Positions 24,497 through 63,717 of a DNA stretch of 63,717 nt are shown here, one piece after another. Origin of the DNA: Salinisphaera orenii subsp. halophila YIM 95161 (GTDB lineage Bacteria; Pseudomonadota; Gammaproteobacteria; Nevskiales; Salinisphaeraceae); NCBI RefSeq assembly GCF_003732545.1, contig NZ_AYKF01000063.1, positions 1-63,717 on the forward strand, given 5' to 3'. How positions within the stretch are numbered: position 1 is the first letter of the stretch; each line of letters begins with the position of its first letter. Below the pieces are notes generated by a model that saw nothing but the letters and a program-made list of their open reading frames with translations, made no database searches and was not told where the DNA came from. The position numbers and the translations under genes are program-made.

Positions 24497-25414
24497 TCAA
24501 AAGCCGAACAGCTTTCGCGTATAGGGCAGATAGCGAAGCGTGAACGGCGGTTTCAGGCTGCGCAGATGATAACGCCATGCCGCTGCGAAACGCCTCTGGC
24601 AACGACTCCGTTCCGCCATTACGTGAAGATGGTTTCGGTACTTGGCTTCCAGGGACGCACGAAGATCACTGGGCAGCCGTGCTTCACGCCGCAACTCTTC
24701 GAGCAGTCTTGTCTCTCCAGGATCGTGCGTATCGCGTTTCGATAACGAGCCCTCGGTATCGTTGTAGAGCGTCACGCTCTTGTCGTGAAACGTCACCCTG
24801 TAGCCTTCCAACATCAGCCGATACGCAATATACGTCCACTCGTGGTGATCGCGATCGACATCCAGCACGTCGCCGTTCACCGTCGCGGCTCGAAAGATCG
24901 TATTGCCGGGCGATAGCCAGTTCTCTTCGACCAGACTGCGCAATGGATCGGCAGTATGTGCCGCCCACTGTTCCACCCACGGGGCACCGCCCGAGGCAGA
25001 CCGCCGCTCTCCATTCAGGACGAGCAGATCCCAGTCGCGCGATGCCGCATGCTCCGTCAGTACCGGACCGACGCCGTCGGCCAGCAATTCATCATCGTCA
25101 TCCAGATACATGAAGAACTCGCTCTCGACGAGCCTTCGGCCCTGAACGACCGCGGCACCCGCCGAGGCGCGCGACATGTAATGGAAGACGCTGCCGTCGC
25201 GGCGTCGAAGCCTATCGACGAGATCGGGATCATAGCGCCGCCCGTTGACTACGATGATCGGATAAGCGGCTACGCTCTCGAGGTTGTCGATGGTATCCAG
25301 GGCCCGCAGCAATGCATCCGCGCGATGCGCATCGGCCATCGTCCGCACGATCACGGCCAGCTCAGGGCCTTCGTGACGAGGACTCTGTGCGCCCTCGATA
25401 CCCGACTCGCTCAC
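24497..25414 (-). CDS. family 2-like glycosyltransferase, end of the XrtA operon
   Basis: The 305-residue protein starts at a GTG that overlaps the previous stop (GTGA). The core shows LAVIVRTMADAHR at the N-terminus, the metal site YLDDDDELL near residue 108, and a typical GT-A acceptor region (LSPGNTIFRA, HHEWTYIAYRLM). It lacks the ATYNR form of the first motif, so it is a more distant GT2 member. It is the last gene of the long minus-strand series and lies directly after the lyase-like lipoprotein gene. Confidence 0.75.
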   Translation of the reverse strand: MSESGIEGAQSPRHEGPELAVIVRTMADAHRADALLRALDTIDNLESVAAYPIIVVNGRRYDPDLVDRLRRRDGSVFHYMSRASAGAAVVQGRRLVESEFFMYLDDDDELLADGVGPVLTEHAASRDWDLLVLNGERRSASGGAPWVEQWAAHTADPLRSLVEENWLSPGNTIFRAATVNGDVLDVDRDHHEWTYIAYRLMLEGYRVTFHDKSVTLYNDTEGSLSKRDTHDPGETRLLEELRREARLPSDLRASLEAKYRNHLHVMAERSRCQRRFAAAWRYHLRSLKPPFTLRYLPYTRKLFGF

Positions 25415-27651
25415 GGCTTGTTCGGCTCCGTCGGCACCACCCCGAACTGTGGGTTCGAACCGTAATCGATGGGCAGGGTACGACCCATGAATCGGCGCCA
25501 GGCCTGTTCCGCACCGGGCCGATCCGCGCGCGCCGAAGCGGCAAGGCCGGGCTGAAAGTTGGCGACGAAACCAGTCGCCGACTTCGGATAGCCGACCATC
25601 GTACGCGGCGGAAAATTGAACCGCTTCTTGCCCTTGCTTTGTGTCAGGGCACGATTGAGCGCCTGCGGCTCGCATCCCGCATCCGCCAGATCGGGAAACG
25701 AGTTCCGATAGACTTCGGCGAAACTGGTGTAGTAAGGCGACTTGCGCTTGTCGCGTAGACGAACGTGGTAAGACGACGCCAGCTCCCAGCAGAAACCCGG
25801 TGCCGTCATCAGCCCGATCTGGAACTGACTGACCCAGTCGCGCAGCGCCTCGGCGCCGTCGAATCCCAAGTCAGCCATATTGCCCGCGGACCACGCGAAG
25901 AAGGAATGCTGCCACGTAGCGTAGCCCGTCCGCTGCTGGCCGCCGCTCGGGTAGATCACCGAATGGTAGCTCGCCACAGCGCCCAGCTTGTTCGCTTTCG
26001 GATTATGCGTGTACTTCTCGTTGTACCAGTCGATATTGCGGCGCACGACGTCGTTGAAATATGCCTTGTGCGAGGCCTCGTCCGGCAACAGATAGGCGGC
26101 ATAGGCCAGCGAACGCAGCATCCAAGCCTGCCCCCTGAGCTGGGTGTTGTGCACCAGCCCGTCGGCATAGTCGCGGTACTTCGGGTTCTGCCACAACAAC
26201 GCCCAGTTGGCCCAGAACCGCATCTCGCTCTCGTAGAACCAATCGCCGGTGGCGAGATAGGCCATATACGTCGGCGCGGGGTGGTGCGCTGCGTCCGCGT
26301 TCAGCGGGCTCTTGCAGGCCGCCTTGCCTTCGCCGCCGCAACTGGGTAAACGATCATCGCCATGCGGTTCCACCGGACAGTCGGCGGTACGAGCCGGCCA
26401 AAGCGTTGTCGCGCAGGGGTGGGCTTTCAGTGACAGGGCGTTTCCGGTTTTCTTGTCACGATAGTGAACGCCGTATGCGCCCATCGCATCGCTGTTGGCC
26501 AGCATCCAGCGAAAGACACGATGGCCCGTGTCGATCGCGTAGGCACTGCTCCATCGCGGCAACGGGCCGATCTGCGGTTGCGCCCCCGTCGTCTGCATCT
26601 GCTTGTAGATGTCGCAGGCGCGCATGGGCGGGCAATCCTGCCTGACATCGGCGAGCATCTTTTTCGACAGTTCGAACTCACCGTACGAGGGCACGGCGGG
26701 GGTCGACTGGAGATACGCGGGCTCCTGAGCTGCATGGAACGGCGCACGATCGCTGGCGCCCCACCACCGGACCTCGTGCCAGCGTGCCTGTCGATAGTGC
26801 CTCACGTCTTCGTGAACGGTCGGCGCCTGGCCGGGCACATCGATACGGGCATCGTAGTCGTAGTTGCGCACGCCGTCGACGTACGCCCAGGCGTTTTCGG
26901 TGACCACATCAACGCGGACCCGCCGTACCGGCGTCGGACCATAGGCGCGTATGGCGAAATAGCTCGCCAGGTGCGGGTGCGCCTCTCCATCGGGGCCCGA
27001 CACCGGTTCGCCGACGATCCATTCGGAGACCAGCGGGCCGGAAAGCCGCCGCCGGCAGAAGAAATCGACGCCGTCGCAGCCGCCGGCTTCGTGCACGCGC
27101 TGCACGAGATCCCGCGCCGAGGCACTCCACGTCTGACCCGAGCGATCGAGACTTAACCGGGCGTCGAACTCGGTTGCCGCGACATCGTTCAGCCCCACGG
27201 CCTTGGGATCATCCCCGCTGCTCCCGTCTTCCGTCTTGACCAGGGCGATCGGTGCACCGTCGGCATCACAGGGGGCGCGAACGGTCACGACAGCGTGCCG
27301 GATCGAGCCGTCGTCGTTCGTCGCACGGGCGTCAACCTGAGTAGGGAGCGCGCGGCCCTCGTACTTGGCCACGAGCATGGCTTCACCGGGCAGATCGCCG
27401 GGACGAAACACCTGTCCAAACGTTACGGGGGCGGTGTCGCAGTCCTGCCCGGTCAGTTTCTCGAGATGTATCCACGTAATCGTGCCGGGCGGCGCATCGG
27501 CCGGCGCTGCGAAAGCCGCTTGTGCTCGTGCCGGCGCCACGCTCCCCGCACAAGCTCCCAGCAGGACCACGGCGAAGGCGAGTACAGCAACGCGCGTCAC
27601 GGTATTCAGGCCCGACGGTAGACGCCGCCACGTCACGGAAGTTCTTATCAT
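25411..27651 (-). CDS. putative polysaccharide-lyase-like lipoprotein
   Basis: The 746-residue protein has a lipoprotein signal (LLGAC, Cys34). Next is a beta-rich domain with VTFGQVF, LPTQVDARAT and DGSIRHAVV, much like the first domain of PcRGLX/YetA-type exo-rhamnogalacturonan lyases. A long helical region follows with AHHP, RGQAWMLRS, QQRTGYATWQHSFFAW and VGYPKSATGF, which looks like an alpha/alpha-toroid. It is a clear paralog of the gene at 61324-63717. By fold and place it may cut or edit the polymer in the periplasm or at the outer membrane. No catalytic residue is proven. The ATG at 27651 overlaps the previous stop (ATGA). Confidence 0.65.
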   Translation of the reverse strand: MIRTSVTWRRLPSGLNTVTRVAVLAFAVVLLGACAGSVAPARAQAAFAAPADAPPGTITWIHLEKLTGQDCDTAPVTFGQVFRPGDLPGEAMLVAKYEGRALPTQVDARATNDDGSIRHAVVTVRAPCDADGAPIALVKTEDGSSGDDPKAVGLNDVAATEFDARLSLDRSGQTWSASARDLVQRVHEAGGCDGVDFFCRRRLSGPLVSEWIVGEPVSGPDGEAHPHLASYFAIRAYGPTPVRRVRVDVVTENAWAYVDGVRNYDYDARIDVPGQAPTVHEDVRHYRQARWHEVRWWGASDRAPFHAAQEPAYLQSTPAVPSYGEFELSKKMLADVRQDCPPMRACDIYKQMQTTGAQPQIGPLPRWSSAYAIDTGHRVFRWMLANSDAMGAYGVHYRDKKTGNALSLKAHPCATTLWPARTADCPVEPHGDDRLPSCGGEGKAACKSPLNADAAHHPAPTYMAYLATGDWFYESEMRFWANWALLWQNPKYRDYADGLVHNTQLRGQAWMLRSLAYAAYLLPDEASHKAYFNDVVRRNIDWYNEKYTHNPKANKLGAVASYHSVIYPSGGQQRTGYATWQHSFFAWSAGNMADLGFDGAEALRDWVSQFQIGLMTAPGFCWELASSYHVRLRDKRKSPYYTSFAEVYRNSFPDLADAGCEPQALNRALTQSKGKKRFNFPPRTMVGYPKSATGFVANFQPGLAASARADRPGAEQAWRRFMGRTLPIDYGSNPQFGVVPTEPNKP

Positions 27652-28919
27652 CGTTCTGTCCCCGTCAGTTCGTCCAGCAATCGGGCCAGTTTCATGGCGC
27701 CGGCCTTGCGCGTGTAGCCGCTCAGGGCTTCGACATCGATCGCGGGCATGTCGTCACCGTCCAGCCGAATCATGAAATCGCGGAGTACGGCTGCGATCTT
27801 GTCCACGTCGTCGATGGGCGCACGCAGCGCCCCGCCGGTGGTGCGCAGAAGCTCAGCCGTATCGCTGTCAGTCGGCGTCAGCGCAATGACGGGGCGCCCG
27901 ATCCGGAGGTATTCGAATACCTTGGCCGGAATCTGCGCGTTGAACTCGCCGCCCTGAAACAGGAGCAGGCCGTGTGCGCCGGCTTGTTCCGCTAGCGCTT
28001 CCCTGTAGCCCACCGGGGGCGCCAGCGTGACGATATCGTCGATCCCGAGGCGAGTCAGTTCCTCGGCGTACGCCGCTTCGTGACCACTGGCTCTCAGGAC
28101 GACTTCCAGCGTGTCCGGCGTTATGACCGAGGCTTCGCGAAGCCGTGCGAGGGCTTCGAAAAAAGGCACCGGGTTTCGACCTTCACGATACAGCAGGCCA
28201 CTGTGGACCAGCCTCACCGGGCCGCCGGCTCCACGGCTCGGAGAGGGAACGGTTGCCACCGTTTCCCCTTCGAATCCATTGGGAATGACATGCATTCGGC
28301 TCGCCGCATCCGGAAACCGCTCCGCGTAGCGCGAGCGCGCCCCCGGCGTCGTGAATACGATCCGATCCGCACGCTCGATCGTCCAGCGTTCCATGGCACG
28401 CGTGGCGCGCTTCTGCGCGGATGTTCCAGCCGGCACCACCGGGTCACGAAAATCGGCGATCCACGGCAAACCGGACAATCGAGCCAGAGAAGCGCCGACG
28501 AGATGGGTCGTCGAGATGGGATAGGTCGACCAGAGCGCGTCGATGCGTTGTCGGCGAATCAATCGCAGACCTGCCCGCAGCGCGCTCGGGTACCACGATA
28601 TCCAGCGATCCGGAATGGCGGTCGCCGAAAGATAGCGCCCGCGCCAGCCCAAATGCCGACGCGCGTCCAACGCCTGGCTGCGCTCGACGTGGACATCGGC
28701 GGGTATGTCTTCCAGTCCCTGCGTATCGAGCCGCTCGTAAACCCGGGGATGGGGGGCGAGAACCCACGGGTTCCAGTGGCATCCGCGCAGATGCCGGGCG
28801 AAGGCGAGCGTGCGCAGACGACCCGTGGACGACGCATCCGGCGGAAAATGGAACGCGATCAGCAGAACCCTTCGATCGCCCCCGTTGGGGGCCGCGGCAT
28901 CATCGTGTTCGTCACTCAC
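27648..28919 (-). CDS. family 4 glycosyltransferase
   Basis: The 423-residue GT-B protein opens with VLLIAFHFPPDASSTGRLRT, typical of GT4 enzymes of exopolysaccharide loci. It ends with a nucleotide-binding domain containing VIPNGFEG near residue 213 and KVFEYLRIGRPVIAL near 335, where Glu is the donor-binding residue. It probably adds one sugar of the repeat unit on the cytoplasmic face. It lies 21 bases after the ligase/polymerase gene and overlaps the lyase-like lipoprotein gene. Confidence 0.88.
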   Translation of the reverse strand: MSDEHDDAAAPNGGDRRVLLIAFHFPPDASSTGRLRTLAFARHLRGCHWNPWVLAPHPRVYERLDTQGLEDIPADVHVERSQALDARRHLGWRGRYLSATAIPDRWISWYPSALRAGLRLIRRQRIDALWSTYPISTTHLVGASLARLSGLPWIADFRDPVVPAGTSAQKRATRAMERWTIERADRIVFTTPGARSRYAERFPDAASRMHVIPNGFEGETVATVPSPSRGAGGPVRLVHSGLLYREGRNPVPFFEALARLREASVITPDTLEVVLRASGHEAAYAEELTRLGIDDIVTLAPPVGYREALAEQAGAHGLLLFQGGEFNAQIPAKVFEYLRIGRPVIALTPTDSDTAELLRTTGGALRAPIDDVDKIAAVLRDFMIRLDGDDMPAIDVEALSGYTRKAGAMKLARLLDELTGTER

Positions 28920-28940
28920 GAGCGAGGTTCCTCATCCGGA

Positions 28941-30326
28941 TCAGTACCACGGCAGATCCTGCTGACCGCCACCCTGCGTGTCCGGGCGCAGCGGTCGTCC
29001 GATCGCCGGCCTTCGCCGACCCACGGGGTGACGATGGGTCGCCGCCGCCGAGGGACTCTCCGCCACGGTCCGCTGCTCGCCGCCCGCTTCGGCACGCAGC
29101 AACAGCATATGGAGTACGGTCGTCATCGCCAGGATCTGATAGAACAGATCGAAATACGGCATCGGCAAAAGTGATCCCGCCGCCGCATACGCGACGAGGC
29201 TCACCTGCATCATGCTCGCCAGATCCGCCATCCAGGCGGTATCGGGACCCGCCCGCGCCTTGCGCCGAATGCGGGCGAGCCCGAACCAGCCCCCCGCGAG
29301 CATGGCGACGAACAACGCCAACCCCACGAAGCCGGCTTCGCCGAGCACCTGGAAGAAAATGCTGTGGATCGCACGATGCACCGCATCCGGCGGCCCGTGC
29401 GTGTCCCACATGGCGTCGCTGGACCAGACCCGCATCCCGCCGCCGAGCAGCGGATCGTCCAGTGCGACATTCACGGCGAATGTCCATGAATTGATACGCC
29501 CCTGAGCGGATTTGTCCTGCTGGTACTCGTCGATCGTGTTCATGCGGCTGTACCACTCCTGCGGCATGAACGACGCGACCAGCACAGCCATGATCGGAAT
29601 GACCAGGAAAAGCGAGGCCCGACGCGGGCTCTTGTAGATCAGCATCAGCACCGTGATGCCCAGCGCCAGCAGACCGCCACGCGAATAAGTACCGACGATG
29701 GCGACGGCGGTCAGACCCATGAGCCCCCAGAGTCCGAGCCGAACCCACTTGCGATGATCCTGCAACTGCAGATAGCGCATGAGCGGCAGGCACATGCACA
29801 TCACGAGCGCGAAACCGTTGGTGTCACGGTAGAAGCTCTTGATCGGCCCCATGACGTTGTACCCGCCACCGGTGATCAGCGTGAAGAAGCCGCCCTTGAA
29901 CCCCCAGAAGCCGAACGAGAGCACGATGGTCCACAGCACCCAGTGCAGGCGTTGCTTGTCGGTCACCAGGATCGCCGTGAAATAGACCATCAGCATGATC
30001 TTGAAGAAGCGCACCCACTCGATCTCGGCCTGGTCAGGCACGACCGCATCCAGTGTCGACAACCCGGTCCAGAGCAGAAACAGCGTCATCAGAATCATCA
30101 ACGGCGTCATGCGCAGCGCCTGGCGCTGCTGCGAATGGGCCATCGTGCTGACCATGGTGACCACGGCGACGATCATCACCCAGGGAAAGGCGGTGGCGAA
30201 GCCGTAGGCGATGCGGTGCGGATTCATGTAACTGAACAGAATCCACAGCATCAGACCGATCACCGGCCGCATGAACGCCATGGGCACGGTGGCGGCAACG
30301 AACATCAGCAGCGCGAGCGCACGCAT
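28941..30326 (-). CDS. XrtA-associated O-antigen ligase/polymerase-like protein
   Basis: The 461-residue protein has about ten membrane helices. It matches the exosortase A-associated putative O-glycosylation ligase family (TIGR03097 by memory): FSYMNPHRIAYGFA near residue 32, YFTAILVTDKQRLHW, TYSRGGLLAL, and the periplasmic loop with GRINSWTFAVN and HSIFFQVLGEAGF. It belongs to the Wzy/WaaL superfamily and most likely polymerises or transfers the polysaccharide. The ATG at 30326 overlaps the previous stop as TGATG. The C-terminal 50 residues are hydrophilic. Confidence 0.9.
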   Translation of the reverse strand: MRALALLMFVAATVPMAFMRPVIGLMLWILFSYMNPHRIAYGFATAFPWVMIVAVVTMVSTMAHSQQRQALRMTPLMILMTLFLLWTGLSTLDAVVPDQAEIEWVRFFKIMLMVYFTAILVTDKQRLHWVLWTIVLSFGFWGFKGGFFTLITGGGYNVMGPIKSFYRDTNGFALVMCMCLPLMRYLQLQDHRKWVRLGLWGLMGLTAVAIVGTYSRGGLLALGITVLMLIYKSPRRASLFLVIPIMAVLVASFMPQEWYSRMNTIDEYQQDKSAQGRINSWTFAVNVALDDPLLGGGMRVWSSDAMWDTHGPPDAVHRAIHSIFFQVLGEAGFVGLALFVAMLAGGWFGLARIRRKARAGPDTAWMADLASMMQVSLVAYAAAGSLLPMPYFDLFYQILAMTTVLHMLLLRAEAGGEQRTVAESPSAAATHRHPVGRRRPAIGRPLRPDTQGGGQQDLPWY

Positions 30327-31465
30327 CAGTCGGCCCCGGTCGCGGCCATGTAGCGCATGACGGCATCCATGTAGAACTTGGCGGCCCAGTTCGGATAGCG
30401 ATGGCGCATGTACTCGCCCCGCATCGGCGCCGATCCCGCGATGGCGCCGCGCCGCGCGCCGCAGGCATGCTCCAGCGACTGACGACTCTGGTCGAAGGCG
30501 ATGCAGCCACGGGCATGCTCGAGCCAGTCGGGCTCGTCCGCCGACGCACCCAGTTCCACCAGACGCAGCCAGACGATCGCCATCTGGACATTGCCGGTCA
30601 GGCAGGACCAGCGAGCGGCCGAACGCCAGTCGGCATCGAGTCGGCCGGGCAGCGCGCCGTCGCGCCGCTGACCTGCGGCGACCGCAGCCGCGACCGTACG
30701 CGCCCGATCGACGTAGGCCTCGACCCCGGCGATCGCCCCGACTTCCAGAACACCGCGTGTGGCATAGGCGATGGTATGGGTCAGCGGGCGATCGTTGTGC
30801 TCGAGATCGTTGTGTGCGAACCAACCGTTGGGCTGCTGCTGCGTCAACGCCCAGTCGACGTTCGCGCAGGCGGCGTCGATGTAACGCGGCTCACCGAGCG
30901 TGCGCCCGGCCAGCGCCAGGCCGTAGGCCACGCGCGTGTTATAGACGTTGACGCCCGCATGGGAGAACGGCGATCCGAACCGCCGCCACGCACCGTCGTC
31001 GTCCTGGGCGGCGACGAGCCAGTCGCTGGCGGCACGCAGCGATTCGGCGAATCGCGCCTCGCCCGTCTGCTCGTAGGCGGCCGCCCAGCCGAACAGCACC
31101 TGCCCGGTATTGAAGATCGTGGGCACGACCTTGGGCGCGTCCATGTTCCCTGCACGCACGCCGCCATCGGCCAGCTGGATCTCCGATTCCCACACCGCCA
31201 TGCGAGTCGCACGTTCGGCGAATTCCGCCCGGCCGGTGAGATGAGCGTAATCGTAGAGCGTCGGGATGATGTAGCCCGTGGTTTCCGGATACGACGCCGC
31301 CCACTGCTTTTTTAGCACGTCATAGTAGGCCGCCACGCCGTCGTCAGGCGTCGCATCCTGCGCTCGCGCCAGCCATTCCGCGGCCGCGTCCAGCCCCGGC
31401 CGCAACGACGCCAGCACCGGGCGGCCACCGCCCATCCGTCGGATCAAACCGGATACAAGACCCAT
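30326..31465 (-). CDS. alpha/alpha-toroid-like protein, possible sugar-active enzyme
   Basis: The 379-residue protein consists of repeated helix pairs with conserved Gly, Trp and Asp residues: YPETTGYIIPTL, NTGQVLFGWAAAYEQTG, QDDDGAWRRFGSPF, LTHTIAYATRGVLE. This is the pattern of alpha/alpha-toroid enzymes such as lyases, epimerases and glycoside hydrolases. No signal peptide is seen, so it works in the cytoplasm. It is joined to both neighbours by TGATG overlaps, which decides the ATG at 31465. I cannot name the reaction; candidates are epimerisation or cleavage of a lipid-linked sugar, or a carrier-bound step with the ATP-grasp enzyme. Confidence 0.6.
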   Translation of the reverse strand: MGLVSGLIRRMGGGRPVLASLRPGLDAAAEWLARAQDATPDDGVAAYYDVLKKQWAASYPETTGYIIPTLYDYAHLTGRAEFAERATRMAVWESEIQLADGGVRAGNMDAPKVVPTIFNTGQVLFGWAAAYEQTGEARFAESLRAASDWLVAAQDDDGAWRRFGSPFSHAGVNVYNTRVAYGLALAGRTLGEPRYIDAACANVDWALTQQQPNGWFAHNDLEHNDRPLTHTIAYATRGVLEVGAIAGVEAYVDRARTVAAAVAAGQRRDGALPGRLDADWRSAARWSCLTGNVQMAIVWLRLVELGASADEPDWLEHARGCIAFDQSRQSLEHACGARRGAIAGSAPMRGEYMRHRYPNWAAKFYMDAVMRYMAATGAD

Positions 31466-33869: not shown

Positions 33870-33872
33870 GCG

Positions 33873-38057: not shown

Positions 38058-38068
38058 AGCGTCGAGTG

Positions 38069-54710: not shown

Positions 54711-56830
54711 GGCTGCTGCGCTCCCCCCGTATCCCCGTTCAACTCGCCGTTTGGTCCATGCTCCGATTCGGCCACCGGTAGACGCAGTGTAAACACCGTG
54801 CCGACGCCCGGCGTACTGTCGACGGCGACATCGCCGCCGGCCCCCCGCGCGAAATCCCGGGCCTGATACGCGCCGATCCCCATGCCCCGCGCCGACTTCG
54901 TGCTGAAGAACGGTTTGAACAGAGAATCACGAATGAACGCGGGCGTCATTCCCTCGCCGTTGTCGCTGACAGCGATCGCCACCGTTCCGACCTCGACGGT
55001 CGCGCGCACCCCCACCCAGCCGTCACGCCCCGTCGCATCCTGCGCGTTCTTTATGACGTGCCGCAGCACCATGGCAAAGCGTTCGCGATCGGCGATCACG
55101 ATCGCTTCGCAGCCGTCGTCCTGGCGCTCGGGCACGGGCGACGTCCCGGCGAGGTTGTCCAGGACCTCCGCCACCAGCGCGTCGATGGCCACGCGTCCGC
55201 CCTGGCGCGGTCCGGCGGAGACGCGCTCGAGCTGGCGCAGAACCTCCTGCATCCGCGCAACGGAATTGTCGACCGTGAGAATCATGTCGTCGACGAATGC
55301 GGGATTGTGCTTGTGGCGTTCGGCGTTCTGGAGAATCAGGGACTGCTGGCCCGCGATGTTCTTCAGATCGTGCATGAGAAACGCCGTGAGCTGATTGAAC
55401 GCCTCGAACTGACGGGCCTGGGTCAATGCCTGATTGCTCTCCTGCTGATCCAGGAACACGCCGACCTGGCGTCCGAGCGTCTTGAGCAGATCCAGCTCCT
55501 CCCAGCCCAGACGATACTGCGCGCGGGGCTCGGCCAGCACCATGAATCCGAGCAGGCGCTCTTCGGCGAACAACGGCAGCAGCAGCCGTGCCCGCGGCAG
55601 CTCTCGGAACGGCCGCGTCAGAGCCAGCGCCGACGCGGCTGCGGAGACGTCGCCCGACTCCCGGAAATCGACGATCCAGCCACTTTCATGCAAAAAGGTC
55701 GCGAGTTCCGAATCCACCGGCAGTTCGATCTCCGTCGCCTTGAGCAGGTTCCACTCGGCGACGACCACGAAACGGTCATCGCGATCGAGCCATAGCGCCC
55801 CCGCCGGACTATCGAGGAGCTGGGCCACCGCGCGGATCGCGCGCCCGTAAGGGTCCACGCCCGCCTCCTGGTGGCTCAGGCGTCGCGTGAGTGCCAGCCA
55901 TTCCTCGCGATAATCGTACTTGTAGCTGAACAGATGCTTGTTGATGAACACGCGCAGGTGTGCGCGGATCTGGGCGGAGGCGAGCAGTACGAACAGGCCG
56001 ATCGTGGTGGCCGCGAGAAAGAAGACCGCGGCCACCGAACCCCAGCTGCCGCCGAATCGACGGATGTAATAGCTGCCGAGTGCGACGATCACGAGATAGA
56101 CCCCGACCGCGAGCACCGTGCCCGAGCGAAAGACCGCCTGGTGCGACATGCCCACGCGAGCCGACCAGCTCGCATGGCGCATCGCCGCGATCGCGATCAT
56201 GGGCGCGGCGAGCGCGTTGACCGCACCGCGCGCGTCCCAGACGTTGATATCGATATGCGCGTAGACTAGCGCGAACGAATACATCAGAAAGTCGTAGACG
56301 AACAAGGTCATCAGCGCCAGACACAGATACTTGATGGCCCAGCGCCGATCCGTGCCGCCGACGCGCCAGGTCTGCTCCACGAGCACCAGCGCCCAGAAAC
56401 TCGTGAGCGTGGCACCGACTGCGAAGAGGAAGCTGTGGCCGGACATCGGCGAGCCCACGACACTCGTCGAGGCAAGGCGCCAGGCGAGGTAGACCAGCAG
56501 AAGCAGGGGTAACCCGAGCGCGACACCGATCAGCAGCGGCCGCGTCGCCCGCCCCGGAAAGCTCGGCAGCAGCGAGGAGGCCAGCACCAGCCACATGCCG
56601 TTGCGGGTCGTCTCCGCCAGATCGAGCACCGGCCCGCCGGCACCGATGAGCGGCGCCGCGGCGAGCAGGCCGAGCCACAGTGTGTTGACGCCGCAGGCCG
56701 CCGCCAGCGGCCGCACGGCCGAATGATGCGGCTCGATAAGCACCAGAAACAGCGTGAGCAGGGCGAAGGCAACGGCCCCGATACCGTTGGATACCACCCA
56801 CAGCTCGATCGAGGTCAGCTCGGGAAACAC
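54707..56830 (-). CDS. prsK: PEP-CTERM system histidine kinase PrsK
   Basis: The 707-residue protein has an N-terminal half of about eight membrane helices and a GAF-like domain (about 330-480). The histidine phosphorylation site is FLMHDLKNIAGQQ near residue 490. The ATPase end carries HVIKNAQDA (N box), DNGEGM and GMGIGAYQARDF (G boxes). It matches PrsK (TIGR02916) and forms a two-component pair with PrsR, with overlapping genes. The signal it senses is unknown. It lies 36 bases after the priming transferase gene. Confidence 0.96.
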   Translation of the reverse strand: MFPELTSIELWVVSNGIGAVAFALLTLFLVLIEPHHSAVRPLAAACGVNTLWLGLLAAAPLIGAGGPVLDLAETTRNGMWLVLASSLLPSFPGRATRPLLIGVALGLPLLLLVYLAWRLASTSVVGSPMSGHSFLFAVGATLTSFWALVLVEQTWRVGGTDRRWAIKYLCLALMTLFVYDFLMYSFALVYAHIDINVWDARGAVNALAAPMIAIAAMRHASWSARVGMSHQAVFRSGTVLAVGVYLVIVALGSYYIRRFGGSWGSVAAVFFLAATTIGLFVLLASAQIRAHLRVFINKHLFSYKYDYREEWLALTRRLSHQEAGVDPYGRAIRAVAQLLDSPAGALWLDRDDRFVVVAEWNLLKATEIELPVDSELATFLHESGWIVDFRESGDVSAAASALALTRPFRELPRARLLLPLFAEERLLGFMVLAEPRAQYRLGWEELDLLKTLGRQVGVFLDQQESNQALTQARQFEAFNQLTAFLMHDLKNIAGQQSLILQNAERHKHNPAFVDDMILTVDNSVARMQEVLRQLERVSAGPRQGGRVAIDALVAEVLDNLAGTSPVPERQDDGCEAIVIADRERFAMVLRHVIKNAQDATGRDGWVGVRATVEVGTVAIAVSDNGEGMTPAFIRDSLFKPFFSTKSARGMGIGAYQARDFARGAGGDVAVDSTPGVGTVFTLRLPVAESEHGPNGELNGDTGGAQQP

Positions 56831-56866
56831 GGATGTAGGCAGCGCGATCGGGGCCGCCGGCGGACG

Positions 56867-58273
56867 CTAGCGTCCGCCCTTGCGGAAAAGCACGACTTCG
56901 ACCGTGTTCATCAGGATGAGCAGGTCGAGGAAGAAGCTGCGATTCTTGACGTAGTAGAGATCGTGCTGGAGCTTGCCGTTGGCATCCTCTTCCGAGGCGC
57001 CGTAGGGATAACCGAGCTGCGCCCACCCGGTAATGCCCGGTTTGACGCATTCGCGCACTCGATAGTAAGGCAGCGTATCGGCCAGCTGATCGACGAACTC
57101 GGGGCGCTCCGGCCGCGGGCCCACCAGGCTCATGTCGCCCTTGAAGACGTTCCACAGCTGCGGCAGTTCGTCGAGCCGATATTTGCGAATGTAGAAGCCG
57201 ACGCGCGTCACCCGCGGGTCGTCGACGCTGGCCCATTGGGCCACGCCGGGCGTCTCGGCATCGGTGCGCATGCTCCGGAATTTGTATATCCAGTAGATCC
57301 CGCCGTTCAGGCCGACGCGTCGTTGCCGAAACAACACGGGCTGGCGCAGCCCGTCCTCGACGAGAATCGCGATTGCGGTAGCGAGCATGATCGGCCAGAC
57401 GATCGCGAGCAGCACCGAGGCGACGGCCAGATCGAGCAGACGCTTGACCGCATCCTGCGCGAAACTGCGCCGGAAACCGTGCGAGAAGATGATCCAGCTC
57501 GGCTGCAGCAGCTCGGTCTTCACCTTGCCGGTCTGGCGCTCGTAAAACGTCAGCGTGTCGACAATATTGACGCCGGCGATACGGCAGTCGATGAGATCGT
57601 CCGACGGAAACTGGTGCCGACGATCGTCCATGGTCACCACGATCTCGTCGATGCGGTGACGCCGCGCGTACTCGGCAAGCGAACAGTCAGCATGCAGGAC
57701 CAGCTGCGAATCCACCTGCGGCGTCTCCCCCGGTGCGAGGATACAGCCCACGAGATTGAACAATGAATGATCGCTGCGACGGCGCATATAGGCCAGCGTC
57801 TCGGCAGCATTGTGTCCGGCGCCGTAGAACAGCACGCGCCACGGCGCGGAGCGCTGGTCGATCAACGCATAAAAGCCCAGCTGAACGATGCTCAAACCAA
57901 TCAGCGACAGCACGAGCGCCATCAACAGGATGCCCCGCCCGAGAAACAGACCCGGGAGGACGTAGAACGCGAATGCGGCGACCAGCGAGGCCATGACCAT
58001 GGCCGCCACGACCCGCACCAGAACCGGCACATGGCGATTCTGACGCTGCGGACGGTACACGCCCATCGCACTCAGGCAGGCCACCACCACGACCGCGAAG
58101 AACACGGCACGCCACATCAACACCGCGTAGTCGCGCATCATCGCCGCGTCGTCTCCGACGTAGCGGATCTCCGTAGCCGCATACACGGAGGCCGCGGCCA
58201 GCGCGAAATGCACGATACCGAGAATGACGAACTTGATGTGGATGTGGTGATTGAATATACGTAGCGTATTCAT
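56867..58273 (-). CDS. priming glycosyl-1-phosphate transferase (EpsB-type)
   Basis: The 468-residue protein has four N-terminal membrane helices, a Rossmann-like middle part (VLFYGAGHNA near 162) and a C-terminal sugar transferase domain. That domain contains PVLFRQRRVGLNGGIYWIYKFRSM, the KYRLDELPQLWNV motif and MSLVGPRPERPEF. This is the polyisoprenyl-phosphate hexose-1-phosphate transferase family, PEP-CTERM subgroup (TIGR03013 by memory). It starts the repeat unit on undecaprenyl phosphate. The ATG at 58273 (MNTLRIFNHH) is the family-type start. Confidence 0.95.
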   Translation of the reverse strand: MNTLRIFNHHIHIKFVILGIVHFALAAASVYAATEIRYVGDDAAMMRDYAVLMWRAVFFAVVVVACLSAMGVYRPQRQNRHVPVLVRVVAAMVMASLVAAFAFYVLPGLFLGRGILLMALVLSLIGLSIVQLGFYALIDQRSAPWRVLFYGAGHNAAETLAYMRRRSDHSLFNLVGCILAPGETPQVDSQLVLHADCSLAEYARRHRIDEIVVTMDDRRHQFPSDDLIDCRIAGVNIVDTLTFYERQTGKVKTELLQPSWIIFSHGFRRSFAQDAVKRLLDLAVASVLLAIVWPIMLATAIAILVEDGLRQPVLFRQRRVGLNGGIYWIYKFRSMRTDAETPGVAQWASVDDPRVTRVGFYIRKYRLDELPQLWNVFKGDMSLVGPRPERPEFVDQLADTLPYYRVRECVKPGITGWAQLGYPYGASEEDANGKLQHDLYYVKNRSFFLDLLILMNTVEVVLFRKGGR

Positions 58274-58584
58274 TCGGTGCCGCAGCCGGGAATGCATGTC
58301 TTGGCGAGATGCGGCGTGTGGCGCTCCACCCCACGTATCACCACATCGGCTGATCTCGCGCATCCATTAGGGCCACCGGCCAACTCGCCAGGGTCCGCAT
58401 GCTGACAAGCCGGCCGCCCCAGGGCCACGCACGAGTAACAACGCGGGCATTTATACCATCGAATGCATGGCTGTGCGCAGGCTGTAAGAGTTTTCGACAA
58501 AAAAGGGGCGGCATCCGAAGACGCCGCCCCTTTCGACCCTGATGGGTCGACGGCCCTGTGACCGGGCCGCATTCACACGATCGA
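58274..58584 (-). other. 311-base leader and promoter region of the priming gene
   Basis: No gene is supported here. On the minus strand TATAAA (58450-58455) could be a -10 element, giving a leader of about 170 bases. A JUMPstart/ops element (GGCGGTAGCGT type) was looked for and not found. The right end holds the terminator of the PEP-CTERM gene. Confidence 0.4.
58499..58533 (-). terminator. intrinsic terminator of the PEP-CTERM gene
   Basis: On the minus strand AAAGGGGCGGC pairs with GCCGCCCCTTT around a TTCG-type loop, followed by more T. The 11-base stem is strong and lies about 50 bases after the stop. It separates the sigma-54 unit from the export locus. A smaller hairpin (CGACCC with GGGTCG) precedes it. 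Confidence 0.88.
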
Positions 58585-59292
58585 TCAGCCGATCAGATCG
58601 CCATCGGTGCTGCGGCGACGCGCCGCGATACCGCCGACGAGCAGCACCAGGCCGAGACCGAAGATCGCGAGTTCCTGCGGCTCCGGAACGTCGGTGCCCG
58701 TCTGCAGGTCCGCCGCGGTCACGTTACCGGAAAAGCCGTTGTCGCCATTGAAGGCGAGCTCGCCGAAGCTGAACTCGGTCGTGGCGAAGGTGAAATCCGC
58801 CCCGGACTCGATGCCGAAGAAGCTTGCGAGTTCATCATTGACCGTATTCACGCCAATGGCGCTGAACAGGCCGGTGCGATTCGAGGCGCGCGTGAGATTC
58901 GGGGTGCCGGTGAACTCGCCGTCGAGCAACGTGCCACTGGCGATCGAGGAACCGCCGTTGACGACCTCACCCGTCAGCGTGAACGAGCCACCGCTACCGA
59001 ACGCGTAGTTGGTACCGACACTGTCACCCTCGGAAATGTTGTCACCGGTAACGAAATTCAGTGCGCAGTTCACGCAGTTGACTTTCGAACCCGTACCGGT
59101 ATCGGCGGAGACGAAGCTGAAGGAAATGCCCTGGCCTACCAGGCCGCCGCCCTGACCGTCATAGCTGAAGCTGCCGGTTGCGGCGCTGGAATCCTGATCG
59201 AAATTGATCGTGGCCGCAGAAGCGCCGGCACAGGCGAACGTCGAAAGGGCCGCGATCGCGACGCTGCGGCTTATGTATTTACCAAATGTCAT
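58585..59292 (-). CDS. PEP-CTERM protein, likely XrtA substrate
   Basis: The 235-residue protein has a signal peptide (cleavage near GASA, residue 26) and a Gly/Ser/Thr/Asn-rich beta-type body. The C-terminal sorting signal is VPEP (202-205), a membrane helix (about 207-224) and the basic ARRR. XrtA would cut after PEP and release the body to the surface or matrix. A Cys pair (CVNC) lies near residue 73. GGAG 9 bases upstream fixes the ATG at 59292. The gene has its own sigma-54 promoter and terminator. The role of the body is unknown. Confidence 0.92.
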   Translation of the reverse strand: MTFGKYISRSVAIAALSTFACAGASAATINFDQDSSAATGSFSYDGQGGGLVGQGISFSFVSADTGTGSKVNCVNCALNFVTGDNISEGDSVGTNYAFGSGGSFTLTGEVVNGGSSIASGTLLDGEFTGTPNLTRASNRTGLFSAIGVNTVNDELASFFGIESGADFTFATTEFSFGELAFNGDNGFSGNVTAADLQTGTDVPEPQELAIFGLGLVLLVGGIAARRRSTDGDLIG

Positions 59293-59362
59293 CAGAACTG
59301 CTCCTTGGGGATGCTGAGAATGCCGTCGAGGCTCCTCGTGCCATACGGCTGTCGAACAGTGA

Positions 59363-59378
59363 TGCAATTCGGGTGCCA
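59363..59378 (-). promoter_or_regulatory. sigma-54 promoter of the 235-residue PEP-CTERM gene
   Basis: On the minus strand TGGCACC-CGAA-TTGCA fits the -24/-12 consensus (TGGCACG-N4-TTGCA) at all but one position with exact spacing. Transcription would start near 59352, 60 bases before the ATG. This fits control by PrsR with RpoN. Confidence 0.85.
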
Positions 59379-59385
59379 ATCTTCG

Positions 59386-59408
59386 ATAACAGCTCAAAAC
59401 GTTGTTAT
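59386..59408. promoter_or_regulatory. inverted repeat upstream of the sigma-54 promoter
   Basis: ATAACA (59386-59391) and TGTTAT (59403-59408) form a 6-base inverted repeat with an 11-base gap, just upstream of the -24 element. The 9-mer TAACAGCTC within it recurs at 60027-60035 before the other PEP-CTERM promoter, so it may be part of an activator site. Confidence 0.35.
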
Positions 59409-59535
59409 GACTTTGTTTTTTTCCTGTCCGTCCGTCGCGAAAATATCGTCTTCAGCATTGTGTAAGATAAAGCGACATAATCGGTTACCGCGAAAACGGC
59501 GGGCTGAAGCGAGAACCGACGCGACGCCCACACGC

Positions 59536-59569
59536 AAAAAAGCCATGACCGCGAAACGGCCATGGCTTT
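59536..59569 (-). terminator. intrinsic terminator of the small PEP-CTERM gene
   Basis: On the minus strand AAAGCCATG pairs with CATGGCTTT (with two inner pairs) and is followed by TTT, about 57 bases after the stop of the 97-residue gene. Confidence 0.8.
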
Positions 59570-59626
59570 CAGGTCATCGACGCTGGCGCGATTTCTCGAA
59601 CCGCGTCAGCGATCGGCTTGTGCGGG

Positions 59627-59920
59627 TTATCCGCGGTTTCTACTGGCGGCGAACCGCATCAACCCGACCATGCCGAGCCCGATCCCGAACAGCGCCCACG
59701 AGGACGGCTCGGGGATATCGTGCCAAGTCTGGCGAGGGCCGGGAATACCGTTGCCGCCGGAGTGATTGCCCGCATGCGACGCATTTCCATTCCATGTCAG
59801 ATAGGCCGCCCCAGTTGGCGCAGCATTTCCGGAACCCTGTGTCCAGGCCGGGCCGGCGAAGGCCGTCATCGCCGCGATGGCGATACCGCCCGCGAGCATT
59901 TTGATCAAACGATTACGCAT
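59627..59920 (-). CDS. very small PEP-CTERM protein
   Basis: The 97-residue protein has a signal peptide (to about residue 27, ending in PAW-TQG) and a body of only about 40 residues rich in Gly, Asn, His and Trp. A textbook PEP-CTERM signal follows: IPEP at 69-72, a membrane helix and the end RFAASRNRG. After processing only a peptide of about 45 residues would remain. It has its own sigma-54 promoter and terminator. It may be a matrix peptide or a signal; no homolog with a known role is recalled. Confidence 0.88.
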   Translation of the reverse strand: MRNRLIKMLAGGIAIAAMTAFAGPAWTQGSGNAAPTGAAYLTWNGNASHAGNHSGGNGIPGPRQTWHDIPEPSSWALFGIGLGMVGLMRFAASRNRG

Positions 59921-59979
59921 ATCCTACAAAGCCTCCATGCCGTGGTCGCTCGACTCACGAGTCTGCCGACATGAACAGA

Positions 59980-59995
59980 TGCAACACTCGTGCCT
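59980..59995 (-). promoter_or_regulatory. sigma-54 promoter of the small PEP-CTERM gene
   Basis: On the minus strand AGGCACG-AGTG-TTGCA matches the -24/-12 consensus with exact spacing (GG and GC kept). Transcription would start near 59969, about 49 bases before the ATG. The sequence just downstream (TTGCATCTGTTC) is close to that of the other PEP-CTERM promoter (TTGCATCACTGTTC), so the two are probably related by duplication. Confidence 0.85.
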
Positions 59996-60145
59996 GAAAA
60001 TTGAAGTCCATCTACAAGCCTGATTTTAACAGCTCCTCTCCAGGACGCTAGCCCCGGCCACGCATGCGTCACCGCTCGTCTTGCCGTTACCTGTAAGGAA
60101 CGTCGACATCGAAGCCACTAAAGGTTTCCAGTCATGCCCGGACGC

Positions 60146-61246
60146 TCAGCCGATACGCTGCGCCAGACTCGCGACGATACGACCTGCCGCCTGGCCGTCC
60201 CAGAGTTCGGGCGGCGTGCGACGACGGGTCTCATCCCCGAGCACCTGGTCGACGGTCGCAACGAGCTCCGCGGGCTTGAGCAGCCGGTTCGACCCTTCTG
60301 TCAGCGTCACCGGCCGTTCGGTATTCTCCCGAAGCGTGAGACACGGGATGCCGAGATAGGTCGTCTCTTCCTGGATTCCGCCCGAGTCGGTGATCGCGAT
60401 CTGCGCGGAGGTCACCAGATGCATGAAATCGATGTAGCCCTGGGGCTCGATCAGATGCACCGCCGGCGCCGATTCCAGACGCTCCAGAAGACCGCTGCTC
60501 TCCAGGCGTGCGCGCGTACGCGGGTGAACGGCAAAAACAAGCGGCACCCGTTCGCTCGACTCGACCAGCTGGTCGACAAGCAGTGCCAATGTGGCCGGAT
60601 CGTCGACGTTCGAAGGCCGGTGCAGCGTGACGATGGCGTAGCGATCGAGGTCGAGGCCCAGCTTGGCCAGCGTATCCGCTTCGGCAATCCGCGGACGCAC
60701 CAGCTCGAAGGAATCCAGCATGATGTTGCCGACGAAGTCGATCTTCTCCGGCGGAATCCCCTCCGCGAGCAGATTCGCATCGGCGTCACGGGAAGGTGTC
60801 CAGAGCAGATCGACGATGGCGTCGGTCACCAGCCGATTGATCTCTTCCGGCATGCTGCGATCACGGCTTCGAAGCCCGGCTTCCAGATGCGCGACACGAA
60901 TCCCGAGTTTCACCGCAGCCAGCGCGCAGGCCGCCGTCGAATTGACGTCCCCGACGACGATGACCCAATCGGGCCGCTCTTCGAGACACACGTTCTCATA
61001 GGCCATCATCACCCGGCCCGTCTGCTCTGCGTGACTGCCACTGCCCACCTCCAGATGGACGTCCGGTTTCGGCAGACCGAAATCGCGAAAGAAGGAATCC
61101 GACATATTGGCGTCGTAGTGCTGGCCGGTATGCACCAGACGCACTCGACACCAGGACACCTTGGAAAGCGCGTGATAGAGCGGCGCGACCTTCATGAAAT
61201 TCGGACGCGCCGCTGCGATCACATCGACCAGAACCTTTGCACTCAT
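60146..61246 (-). CDS. wecB: UDP-N-acetylglucosamine 2-epimerase, non-hydrolysing
   Basis: The 366-residue GT-B-like protein shows the WecB pattern. AARPNFMKVAPL lies near residue 12, HTGQHYD near 39 and VVGDVNST near 96. HLEAGLRSRDRSMPEEINR follows near 119, then TLHRPSNVD and SGGIQEETTYLGIPCLTLRENTERP near 290. It makes UDP-ManNAc from UDP-GlcNAc, so N-acetylmannosamine or its uronic acid is a likely component of the polymer. No dehydrogenase (wecC) is seen in the window. It lies 77 bases after the lyase-like gene and has its own candidate promoter. Confidence 0.95.
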   Translation of the reverse strand: MSAKVLVDVIAAARPNFMKVAPLYHALSKVSWCRVRLVHTGQHYDANMSDSFFRDFGLPKPDVHLEVGSGSHAEQTGRVMMAYENVCLEERPDWVIVVGDVNSTAACALAAVKLGIRVAHLEAGLRSRDRSMPEEINRLVTDAIVDLLWTPSRDADANLLAEGIPPEKIDFVGNIMLDSFELVRPRIAEADTLAKLGLDLDRYAIVTLHRPSNVDDPATLALLVDQLVESSERVPLVFAVHPRTRARLESSGLLERLESAPAVHLIEPQGYIDFMHLVTSAQIAITDSGGIQEETTYLGIPCLTLRENTERPVTLTEGSNRLLKPAELVATVDQVLGDETRRRTPPELWDGQAAGRIVASLAQRIG

Positions 61247-61276
61247 TCGCTTCTTCAGAGATTTGATTCAGCCGCA

Positions 61277-61304
61277 AGTCTAACGACTTTGCATGAAGTC
61301 ACAA
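61277..61304 (-). promoter_or_regulatory. candidate sigma-70 promoter of wecB
   Basis: On the minus strand TTGTGA and TAGACT stand 16 bases apart, 31 bases before the wecB ATG. Each is two bases from the consensus. Confidence 0.5.
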
Positions 61305-61323
61305 TGGCAACGCGGCTCGACGA

Positions 61324-63717
61324 TCACCGAGGAACGACCGCGAAATTCGGATAGTCGTCATAGTCGGGCTTGACCGACCGCTCATCGAAGACGCGCCATG
61401 CTTCGGTCGCCTTGGTTATACCGCTTCCGGCCGCCATGGCCAGACCGATCTGCAGATTCGATGCAAAGCCGGTTGCTGAATTCGCGTAACCGACCATCTC
61501 TCCCACGGCATAGCGGCGGCTGCCATCGCGACTCAACACATTGGCCATTTCCTGTCCCCCGCAGGGCAGGCCGCTCAGTTCCGGATAGGCGGCCTTGTAC
61601 GCCGTCGCGATATCGGGAAAGTTCTCGGCGCCTTTAGAGGGTCGAATCTGCAGAGAGTACGTCGGCGCCACGATCCAGCAGTAGCCCTCCTCGGGATCCG
61701 ACTGCCAATCGGTCATGCGGTCCACCTGAAAACGGGACAGCCAGGCGAGCAGAGTCGCGGCACCCTCGACCCGCTGGTCCGCCACGTGGCCCACGGCCCA
61801 GGTCAGAAAGTCGGCCTGCCAGGGGCCGACGCCGACCCGACTCTGGCCGTTCGCGGGATAAATGACAGCACCCCAGTTGTCGATGACATGGAACGGATTG
61901 CCTTCGTCATCGTTGACGAAGGATTTGATGTAATCGTTAATAATCCACTCGATCTGATCCGTGAAATACGACTTCAAAGGATCCGTGTCGGGCGTCGCGA
62001 ATGCGGCGTCCGAAATCGAGCGTATCGCCCATGCCTGCCCGCGCACCTGCCCTTGAGCGCCCAGCAGCTGCCCTTTGTCGTAATCGCGATAACGCTGATT
62101 GGCCCACAGCTGAACATAGGAGGCCGTGAACTGCAGCTCCTCCAGATAGTAGTAGTCACCCGACACGAGATAGGGCACATACCCGATGGACGGATGATGC
62201 GCGATGTCGAAACTCAAGGGCGAGCCGCAATCCGATGGGCAGCCGGGCAGCAAATCGTCTTGAAACTGGCCTCCTGCATTGGATGCATAGCTCCGGTTAG
62301 CGAGAGTCACGTAGGGGTGGCGGGTGATCTCGAGCGGGCGTCCCGTTTCACCGTCCCGATAGTGAAAGGAATAACTACCGGCCGCGTCGTCATTGGCCAA
62401 CATCCAGCGATAGGCCCGCGGATCGGAAGACACCACGTACGCCGATGTCCACCGAGGCAGCGGACCGATGGCGGCCTGCGCACCCGTGTTGCCCATCGAC
62501 TTCGTCTGATCGCCGTGAGTCATCGGCTCGATGTCCTGACGCACGCTATCGAGCAGGTCATCACTGGGCGTCAACGTCGCGTAATTGGAAATGGCCCGCG
62601 TGCTCTGGAGGTAATCGGTGTCGATCCGAGCGGTGCGGGGGGGCGCGTTCGCAGTCCAGAGAGTTCTGTGCCAGCGCGACTGCCGGTACTGGGTCAGATC
62701 CGCTACCGAATAGCGATTCGCGCCCACGGTGATCTCGGCATCGTAATCACGGTTCTGCGGCGTGACGCCGTAGGCAAGCGCATTCTCCACCACGGTATCC
62801 ACCCGCACATTGTCGATGCGCCCGTCGCTGCGGTAGGCGCGAACATGAAAATAGACCTGGAGCCCGTCGTTCGTCTGCGAACCGGATACCAGCGCCGCCG
62901 GCACGATCCATTCGGAGACCAGCGGGCCCGACAACCATTGCTTGCATTGCTTTGCCCCCCATTCGGGGCACATCCCCACCTGAGAAGCCGTCGCCAGCGC
63001 ATGACTCGCATCGGCGGTGTAGGTCAAGCCGTTCTGCTTGATCTCCAGCCGTGCATTGAAGCCCGTCGCGAGCAGATCGCCGATCTGCACCGCAGAATCA
63101 CCGCCATCCGACGAACTGCGATCGGAATCCACGCTGTACAGGGCGAACTCCGACGCACTACCGGCGGCAACGGTGATGACCGCATGGCGCAGTGATCCGT
63201 CGGACCAGGTTGCCTTGGCGTCGATCTGCGTCGGCAGCGCCTGTCCGTCGATCTCGGCAATCAGGGTGTGCCCCGCCGGCACGTCGCCCTCGCGAAAAAC
63301 CTGACCGAAGGTGACCGGTGTCGTGGCTGCCGCGGAGGAAGCGCGGGCCGAACGGGCATCCGCAGCCGCCGTGAGTCCGACATCGACGACACGTGTTGCC
63401 TCGTCCGGCAACGCATCACCGCCGTCCTCGGGCGCCTCGCCAACGTCGTCGCCCGGTTCAGACGCCGGCTCTTCGCTCGGGTCGTCTTCAATAGCGTCCT
63501 CATCCGAGGAATCATCCGAGGAATCGTCCGAGGAATCGTCCGAGGAATCGTCCGAGGAATCGTCCGTGGAATCGTCCGAGGAGTCATCCGAGGAGTCGTT
63601 TGAGGAATCGTCCGAGGAATCGTCCGAGGAATCGTCCGAGGAATCGTCCGAGGAATCATCCGAGGAATCATCCGAGGAATCATCCGTGGAATCATCCGTG
63701 GAATCATCCGTGGAATC
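61324..63717 (-). CDS. putative polysaccharide-lyase-like protein with Asp/Ser repeat, partial
   Basis: The frame runs open to the window edge, so the true start is outside; 797 residues are visible. The first 70 or so form an Asp/Ser repeat (DDSS units), then an acidic linker. Next comes a beta-rich domain with VTFGQVF, LPTQIDAKAT and DGSLRHAVI, like the first domain of PcRGLX/YetA-type lyases. A helical toroid-like region follows with AHHP, RGQAWAIRS, NWGAVIYPANGQSRVG and VGYANSATGF. It is paralogous to the lipoprotein at 25411 over its whole folded part. The repeat probably acts as a flexible, charged spacer from a surface anchor. Function is inferred, not shown. Confidence 0.7.
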   Translation of the reverse strand, partial: DSTDDSTDDSTDDSSDDSSDDSSDDSSDDSSDDSSDDSSNDSSDDSSDDSTDDSSDDSSDDSSDDSSDDSSDEDAIEDDPSEEPASEPGDDVGEAPEDGGDALPDEATRVVDVGLTAAADARSARASSAAATTPVTFGQVFREGDVPAGHTLIAEIDGQALPTQIDAKATWSDGSLRHAVITVAAGSASEFALYSVDSDRSSSDGGDSAVQIGDLLATGFNARLEIKQNGLTYTADASHALATASQVGMCPEWGAKQCKQWLSGPLVSEWIVPAALVSGSQTNDGLQVYFHVRAYRSDGRIDNVRVDTVVENALAYGVTPQNRDYDAEITVGANRYSVADLTQYRQSRWHRTLWTANAPPRTARIDTDYLQSTRAISNYATLTPSDDLLDSVRQDIEPMTHGDQTKSMGNTGAQAAIGPLPRWTSAYVVSSDPRAYRWMLANDDAAGSYSFHYRDGETGRPLEITRHPYVTLANRSYASNAGGQFQDDLLPGCPSDCGSPLSFDIAHHPSIGYVPYLVSGDYYYLEELQFTASYVQLWANQRYRDYDKGQLLGAQGQVRGQAWAIRSISDAAFATPDTDPLKSYFTDQIEWIINDYIKSFVNDDEGNPFHVIDNWGAVIYPANGQSRVGVGPWQADFLTWAVGHVADQRVEGAATLLAWLSRFQVDRMTDWQSDPEEGYCWIVAPTYSLQIRPSKGAENFPDIATAYKAAYPELSGLPCGGQEMANVLSRDGSRRYAVGEMVGYANSATGFASNLQIGLAMAAGSGITKATEAWRVFDERSVKPDYDDYPNFAVVPR
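63501..63717 (-). repeat. 12-base tandem repeat coding for Asp-Asp-Ser-Ser
   Basis: The minus-strand unit GACGATTCCTCG (DDSS, with GAT/GAC and TCG/ACG variants giving DDST, and one Asn variant) repeats about 17 times and continues beyond the window. Most differences are at the third codon position, so selection seems to keep the peptide. It lies in frame with the lyase-like gene. Confidence 0.9.

Follow-up and report, generated by a model that had tools for sequence, protein, structure and literature searches.

The exosortase A (XrtA) locus of Salinisphaera orenii subsp. halophila YIM 95161 lies on contig NZ_AYKF01000063.1, all 63,717 nucleotides of which were analyzed (the window; G000:C63 in the genome sample) and which is part of a genome of 3.79 Mb. 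A gene for a member of one protein family, the subject of this report, is found at each edge of the locus. The operon copy (25411..27651, minus strand) encodes 746 amino acids with a lipobox (LGAC) and a predicted RIFT barrel, beta sandwich and alpha/alpha toroid. The edge copy (61324..63717, minus strand) is an open frame of 797 amino acids in which a Ser/Asp repeat spacer is followed by the same domains, and its start is beyond the contig end, the break being inside the repeat. Both frames and their relatedness had been claimed in a first-pass annotation of this DNA, and indeed the two proteins have 40% identity over 677 columns (BLASTP as a single comparison, E 4e-154, far beyond chance) and the motifs GPLPRW, RWMLAN, AHHP, RGQAW and SATGF in common. 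The same annotation presented one as a lipoprotein and the other as an Asp/Ser-spacer protein. The lipobox and the spacer are there, but a lipid anchor is very probable for the edge copy as well, because its full-length orthologs (L014, L017, and L018) start with a lipoprotein signal, after which comes a long low-complexity spacer. In the region of the contig end (63500-63717) the repeat of L017, the closest ortholog, is longer and made up of Asp/Ala/Ser/Thr, and repetition at this point is a likely reason for the assembly break.

The genes between the two copies are those of an XrtA-type polysaccharide locus. XrtA itself (39241..40758, minus strand) scores 288.7 bits against a cut-off of 208, and the PrsR, PrsK, and EpsB2 genes (53343..58363, minus strand) are all above their cut-offs. 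The full set that passes the NCBIfam cut-offs consists of stp1, stp3, XrtA, an amidotransferase, FemAB, a deacetylase, an outer-membrane protein, a chain-length protein, PrsT, PrsR, PrsK, and EpsB2, with stp2, an ATPase and a tyrosine kinase slightly under. The operon copy is directly preceded by a gene for a family 4-type glycosyltransferase (27648..28919, minus strand, Pfam), and its start codon is situated 4 bases inside the 3′ end of that gene (ATGA overlap). The edge copy adjoins a gene for a UDP-GlcNAc 2-epimerase of the WecB type (60146..61246, minus strand, Pfam). A third paralog with 43% identity to the operon copy is found off the XrtA contig, on contig C70. Its N-terminus resembles, by eye, an ordinary signal peptide, and three of the ten frames scanned around it have Pfam matches (LysR, methyltransferase, and saccharopine dehydrogenase), none typical of a polysaccharide locus.

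The family is linked to XrtA loci well beyond the window. In a Salinisphaeraceae-level sample of 17 genomes, family proteins are present in seven and XrtA in six, and all six XrtA genomes have one copy on either side of XrtA on the same contig, the operon copy at a distance of about 12-17 kb and the edge copy at about 20-21 kb, just as the first-pass annotation had placed the paralogs at both edges of the locus. A wide scan found relatives in 138 stretches, from which the best 80 were taken to give 75 loci, and among these best 80 of 138 the closest named relative is that of Salinisphaera orenii MK-B5 (92% identity to the operon copy). Using the window proteins as XrtA-locus markers, with strong-marker thresholds set by hand, a strong XrtA-locus gene was found in the fetched flanks of 37 of the 75 loci, 32 of the 52 with full flanks, and 28 of the 43 full-flank loci outside Salinisphaera. 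The marker-bearing loci are mainly from Massilia and other Oxalobacteraceae, Rhodanobacter, and Salinisphaera, and the gene is thus found at such loci in a range of species. In an evenly drawn class sample of 369 genomes, the family is found in 14 and an exosortase match (E up to 0.001) in 117, the latter comprising 13 of the 14 carriers versus 104 of the 355 non-carriers (Fisher p 2e-6). At the curated XrtA cut-off the numbers are 9/14 versus 64/355 (p 3e-4), and kinship between the genomes makes both p values too small. In five of the 14 carriers (G000, G167, G183, G349, and G372) the family gene and an exosortase are less than 20 kb apart on one contig. A co-occurrence test in a second group covered two genomes only. 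Hence the survey of XrtA loci for homologs suggested at the outset did find a link to polysaccharide loci (37/75 loci; 13/14 class carriers).

A tree of 64 proteins provides some insight into how the two positions arose. Operon copies from Salinisphaera and Rhodanobacter-type loci form one clade (100/100), and the operon-copy slot is therefore judged from the tree to be old. The epimerase-adjacent copies are split into two clades, those of Salinisphaera grouping with third paralogs and the Rhodanobacter-type ones elsewhere, which suggests that this second position was occupied on more than one occasion. Two divergent members from one genus (G167:C59:32454-34184 and G372:C1:2252654-2254369, E about 1e-89), each with an exosortase above the XrtA cut-off at a distance of ∼13 kb, possibly represent a second subfamily.

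The fold was modeled from an alignment of 55 bacterial sequences, comprising the two window proteins and 53 of a 73-protein set from which the partial loci L039 and L096 had been left out. The resulting AlphaFold2 model (predicted local distance difference test, pLDDT, 93.7; predicted template modeling score, pTM, 0.94) has beta domains to about model residue 260 and is mostly helical thereafter (model residue i is protein residue i+50). The helical part is an alpha/alpha toroid, which agrees with the toroid-like region of the first-pass annotation. Matches of the full-length model to the PDB are weak but of one kind, the best being dextran dextrinase (9ju0, E 1.9e-5), together with entries of glycoside hydrolase family GH78 and polysaccharide lyase family PL26, the latter aligned with root-mean-square deviations of 15-16.5 (5xqj, probability 0.92, TM-score 0.29; 5xqo, probability 0.87). 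The toroid modeled alone (pLDDT 92.1) also has weak PDB matches, mainly to toroid-type sugar enzymes. A sequence search against solved structures gave one marginal match, to a mannosyltransferase (E 0.19), while the corresponding profile search gave none, and no NCBIfam model matched the operon or edge copy at E up to 1.

The PcRGLX/YetA-like beta domain noted in the first-pass annotation is present as the N-terminal RIFT barrel (PF19501, PcRGLX_1st), but none of the other PcRGLX domains could be recognized. PF19501 matches the edge copy above the curated cut-off (E 1.6e-6), the operon copy below it (E 0.015), and 54 of the 55 members at E up to 1 (best 5.1e-7). PF21345, the central beta sandwich, matches 0/55 members at E up to 1 (hhalign P 0.15 over 17 columns), and PF21346, the C-terminal toroid, also matches 0/55 (hhalign P 0.28 to 0.74). 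The hhalign reference consisted of three bacterial PcRGLX proteins fetched by PF21346, two of which were scanned and each found to have all three domains. Against this PcRGLX alignment only the N-terminal barrel is similar, with P 8e-6, or P 2.8e-6 when a profile of 98 sequences that includes phage relatives was used. Membership in PL26 was therefore rejected, since the RIFT barrel alone is related and the sandwich and toroid failed even with the 98-sequence profile.

Relatives of the family are also found in phages. A search of viral predicted structures found an uncultured tailed-phage protein (E 9.5e-18, TM-score 0.71 by its own length, 21% identity), and when the toroid alignment was used to scan viral contigs, 54 loci were recovered, among which the best near-complete toroid match has 37% identity (L100). 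By hand count, 34 of these loci are matched over almost the full length of the operon copy, in one piece or two, and the others are partial or divergent. That the viral contigs are mislabeled bacterial polysaccharide loci was considered and rejected, because the operon copy is the only one of 23 window locus proteins to match them at E 1e-8 and phage genes are nearby. Representative neighbors, identified by PHROGs, are terminase large subunit, portal, major tail, and tape measure proteins. Relatives of these, or of the terminase, head or tail proteins of EBPR siphovirus 1 (ESV1), are found in at least 21 of the 54 viral loci (hand count), so that in these loci the family gene is placed among virion structural genes, as is expected of a phage depolymerase. 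In L102, for example, the order is terminase, portal, family member (“lyase”), tail-like protein, and tape measure. The only relative among 50,697 phage records is gp39 of ESV1 (JF412302.1; 27% identity, E 1e-26), the gene for which lies in the interval from terminase gp33 to head gp47, next to one annotated as coding for a glycosyl hydrolase. The ESV1 paper gives the host as unknown, lists accession JF412297 in a table and describes two ESV1 genotypes (PMC3097231), and our guess is that JF412302.1 is the second genotype. Phage and bacterial sequences are interspersed in a quickly built tree, some branches of which are long: no fewer than six switches of the phage label are required, and some of the phage sequences fall within groups of Massilia proteins. 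When ten phage members were scanned against PHROGs, nine had no match and the tenth a weak N-terminal one, and none of the 55 bacterial members matched at E up to 0.01.

Signals for export differ within the family. The crude lipobox pattern is positive in 39 of the 73 bacterial members, a number that includes at least three likely false matches (L024, L050, and L058) and to which misses such as L026 and L078 are to be set. By eye, a PEP-CTERM sorting signal is absent from the C-termini of both the operon and edge copies, and many phage members are without a signal peptide, several have extra N- or C-terminal parts, and in a few a signal peptide or lipobox is retained. The bacterial members L053 and L073 have C-termini that resemble, also by eye, cargo of the type 9 secretion system (T9SS). 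Six of the 73 bacterial members (L040, L043, L058, L064, L089, and L090) end, by eye, like GlyGly-CTERM proteins, with a Gly-rich stretch, a hydrophobic helix and an Arg cluster, a signal described previously (PMC3237569). Judging from these sequences, the family members seem to be surface-anchored by differing means.

Residue conservation was assessed in 98 proteins, the 55 bacterial ones and 43 from phages. The latter are gp39 and proteins from 42 viral loci. Of the 54 loci, five had no called frame, and of the remaining 49, in which a relative was called, seven cut-off or duplicate ones (L110, L121, L130, L134, L138, L139, and L140) were omitted. Nine residues are invariant in 98/98, G205, E252, R290, R398, H456, Y465, R506, W510, and R513, and all nine are present in both the operon and edge copies. 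The only polar ones are E252, R290, R398, H456, Y465, R506, and R513. These residues would converge in one cleft, and the His/Tyr/Arg set fits a beta-elimination reaction. A precedent is provided by the PL33 lyases, which use Tyr and His with a stabilizing Asn (PMC11848413).

The favored interpretation, to which we assign about an even chance on the basis of sequence and model, is that the family consists of secreted, lipid-anchored three-domain enzymes that cut the XrtA-locus polysaccharide, most likely by beta-elimination, and that phages use as a depolymerase. Both window proteins would be secreted and lipid-anchored, with the RIFT barrel, beta sandwich and alpha/alpha toroid forming one enzyme. 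Cleavage would most likely occur by beta-elimination at a uronic-acid residue, with the carboxylate held by arginines R398, R506, and R513, and H456 and Y465 serving as base and acid. In the bacterium the enzyme would trim, clear or release the cell's own matrix, as AlgL does with alginate, while in the phage the protein from the structural gene module would be a depolymerase for passing such a matrix. We infer in this way the substrate, the chemistry, surface exposure, presence in virions and the physiological role. Such a function has parallels, in that in-operon cutters of the AlgL type clear trapped polymer (PMC8829089). Moreover, since floc formation in Aquincola is linked to epsB2, prsT, and prsK and to a gene for a PEP-CTERM protein (PMC9850573), a cutter at an XrtA-type locus could set the amount of matrix that is bound or released. 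A broader version, in which this is a new lyase family dedicated to the XrtA polysaccharide, with anchored locus-end copies that remodel the matrix and a gene that has been repeatedly exchanged with phages and used in virions, is put forward tentatively and we are more inclined to doubt it than to accept it.

Several results weigh against the proposed anchored lyase. The fold matches in the PDB are weak, and for the toroid alone there was none at E up to 1e-3. The third paralog is located elsewhere in the genome, the fragmented assembly G015 has three family copies and no XrtA match, one of the 14 class carriers (G206) is without an exosortase match, and 38 of the 75 loci have no strong XrtA marker at the thresholds used. 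Two of these 38 (L024 and L027, from Salinisphaera) carry other genes of the window operon, and a search for shared neighbors at the marker-less loci yielded, besides one flippase-type and one Wzy-type protein, genes for S41 peptidase, cytochrome, and LysR. There is also no nucleotide-sugar dehydrogenase over cut-off within the window, a gene that would have pointed to a uronic acid. Uronic acids are nevertheless likely to be available, judging from gene content, because two such dehydrogenases over cut-off are encoded in every one of the six XrtA genomes. In G004 and G013 they lie less than 10 kb from the operon copy and in G016 at ∼24 kb. In G000, G006, and G012 they are on other contigs or at a great distance, both being on other contigs in G000. 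The absence of strong markers at half of the loci, together with the third paralog, could be taken to mean that the proteins degrade foreign polysaccharides as food and that proximity to the XrtA locus is incidental. This is the least probable of the explanations considered, as it accounts neither for the positions kept on both sides of XrtA nor for the co-occurrence with exosortase.

How a protein of this type would act on the XrtA polysaccharide is a separate question. It is unlikely, though worth serious attention, that the family consists of toroid-type glycoside hydrolases acting on that polymer. In the PDB, the full model is best matched by an enzyme of hydrolase type (9ju0), and entries of GH78, GH88, and GH105 also appear. 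Toroid hydrolases normally need two acids, and E252 in the beta region is the sole acid invariant in the 98 proteins, D470, E476, and D524 being kept in only 34, 28, and 29 of the 43 phage proteins. A lyase is therefore favored over a hydrolase. The same His/Tyr/Arg set, invariant over 98 distant proteins, seems more than binding usually needs, which makes it quite improbable that the proteins are non-catalytic polysaccharide binders, serving as matrix anchors in bacteria and attachment proteins in phages, even if PEP-CTERM systems are thought to keep polysaccharide on cells (PMC9850573). The proteins could also be uronate C5-epimerases, which would alter the polymer without cutting it, toroid epimerases having the fold and catalytic residues of lyases. 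On the strength of fold and active site, lyases have been classed together with the epimerase Ds-epi1 in a paper on PL33 (PMC11848413). The bacterial copies in or beside a synthesis locus would suit an epimerase, but there is no obvious gain from one for phages that carry the family in structural modules, and we consider this very unlikely. The phage relatives are an independent hint that the family cuts polysaccharide. Hence the initial proposal of a polysaccharide-active enzyme family is still the best reading, with a toroid in the model and a link to polysaccharide loci, although the kinship to PcRGLX that was part of it is restricted to the barrel.

Other features of the locus bear on the polymer and its regulation. 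Upstream of the operon copy and its glycosyltransferase is a gene for a Wzy-type protein (DUF5935 and Wzy_C; 28941..30824, minus strand, Pfam), the listed frame of which overlaps the next gene at its start. That conserved gene (30326-31468, minus strand) is matched marginally by the Pfam models for pectic acid lyase and the GH127 toroid (E about 2e-5) and has counterparts in Rhodanobacter-type loci too. Its product is possibly another toroid enzyme within the XrtA operon. Two sulfotransferase-family genes (35117-36175 and 16817-17701, both minus strand, Pfam) lie in or near the locus, and so the polymer might be sulfated. Two PEP-CTERM protein genes, recognized by eye, are situated between EpsB2 and the UDP-GlcNAc 2-epimerase. 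The first (58585..59292, minus strand), with its start placed by eye at an internal ATG, encodes a protein that ends VPEPQELAIFGLGLVLLVGGIAARRR..., and the second (59627..59920, minus strand) encodes a small one of 97 amino acids. An exact sigma-54-type promoter site (59363..59378, minus strand) is upstream of the first and a site with one mismatch (59980-59995) is upstream of the second. Sites of this kind are no more numerous than expected by chance (two or more in 49 of 100 shuffles), only their positions being notable, and a sigma-54 motif upstream of PEP-CTERM genes has been reported (PMC1569441). Rfam and tRNA scans of the window gave no matches.

XrtA loci are widespread, as the exosortase-like matches in 117 of the 369 class genomes indicate, yet a literature search that largely excluded subscription papers found none describing this family or an enzyme that cuts the polymer of an XrtA locus. 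With members at XrtA loci and in phage structural modules, the family would be a direct handle on that polymer, and its phage members point to phages that may be equipped to attack PEP-CTERM biofilms and flocs. If the broader interpretation is true, the family would be both a tool to identify the polymer and a marker of phages that attack PEP-CTERM bacteria.

Comparison with known systems indicates what is distinctive here. With PcRGLX/PL26 (PF19501, PF21345, and PF21346) the family has a homologous N-terminal RIFT barrel and, in the predicted fold, the barrel-sandwich-toroid order in common, but its sandwich and toroid are without sequence or profile similarity and it is associated with synthesis loci and with phages. 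AlgL is a toroid lyase and belongs to a synthase-dependent system, while the family described here is part of a Wzy/XrtA system, has two copies that are lipoproteins or very probably so, and has other beta domains. What it has in common with AlgL and other cutting enzymes of exopolysaccharide operons is a secreted cutter, as predicted here, that is coded with the polymer-making machinery (PMC8829089). Phage depolymerases are likewise enzyme-like proteins coded in the structural module, but toroid folds are rare among them, accounting for 11 of 984 DepoScope fold matches and being excluded from its training (PMC11326577). The window locus is a full example of the XrtA/PEP-CTERM system (EpsH, PrsK, PrsR, and PrsT), to which the family would add a cutting enzyme, whereas in the main text of the 2006 description, by a search for these terms, neither “lyase” nor “hydrolase” appears (PMC1569441).

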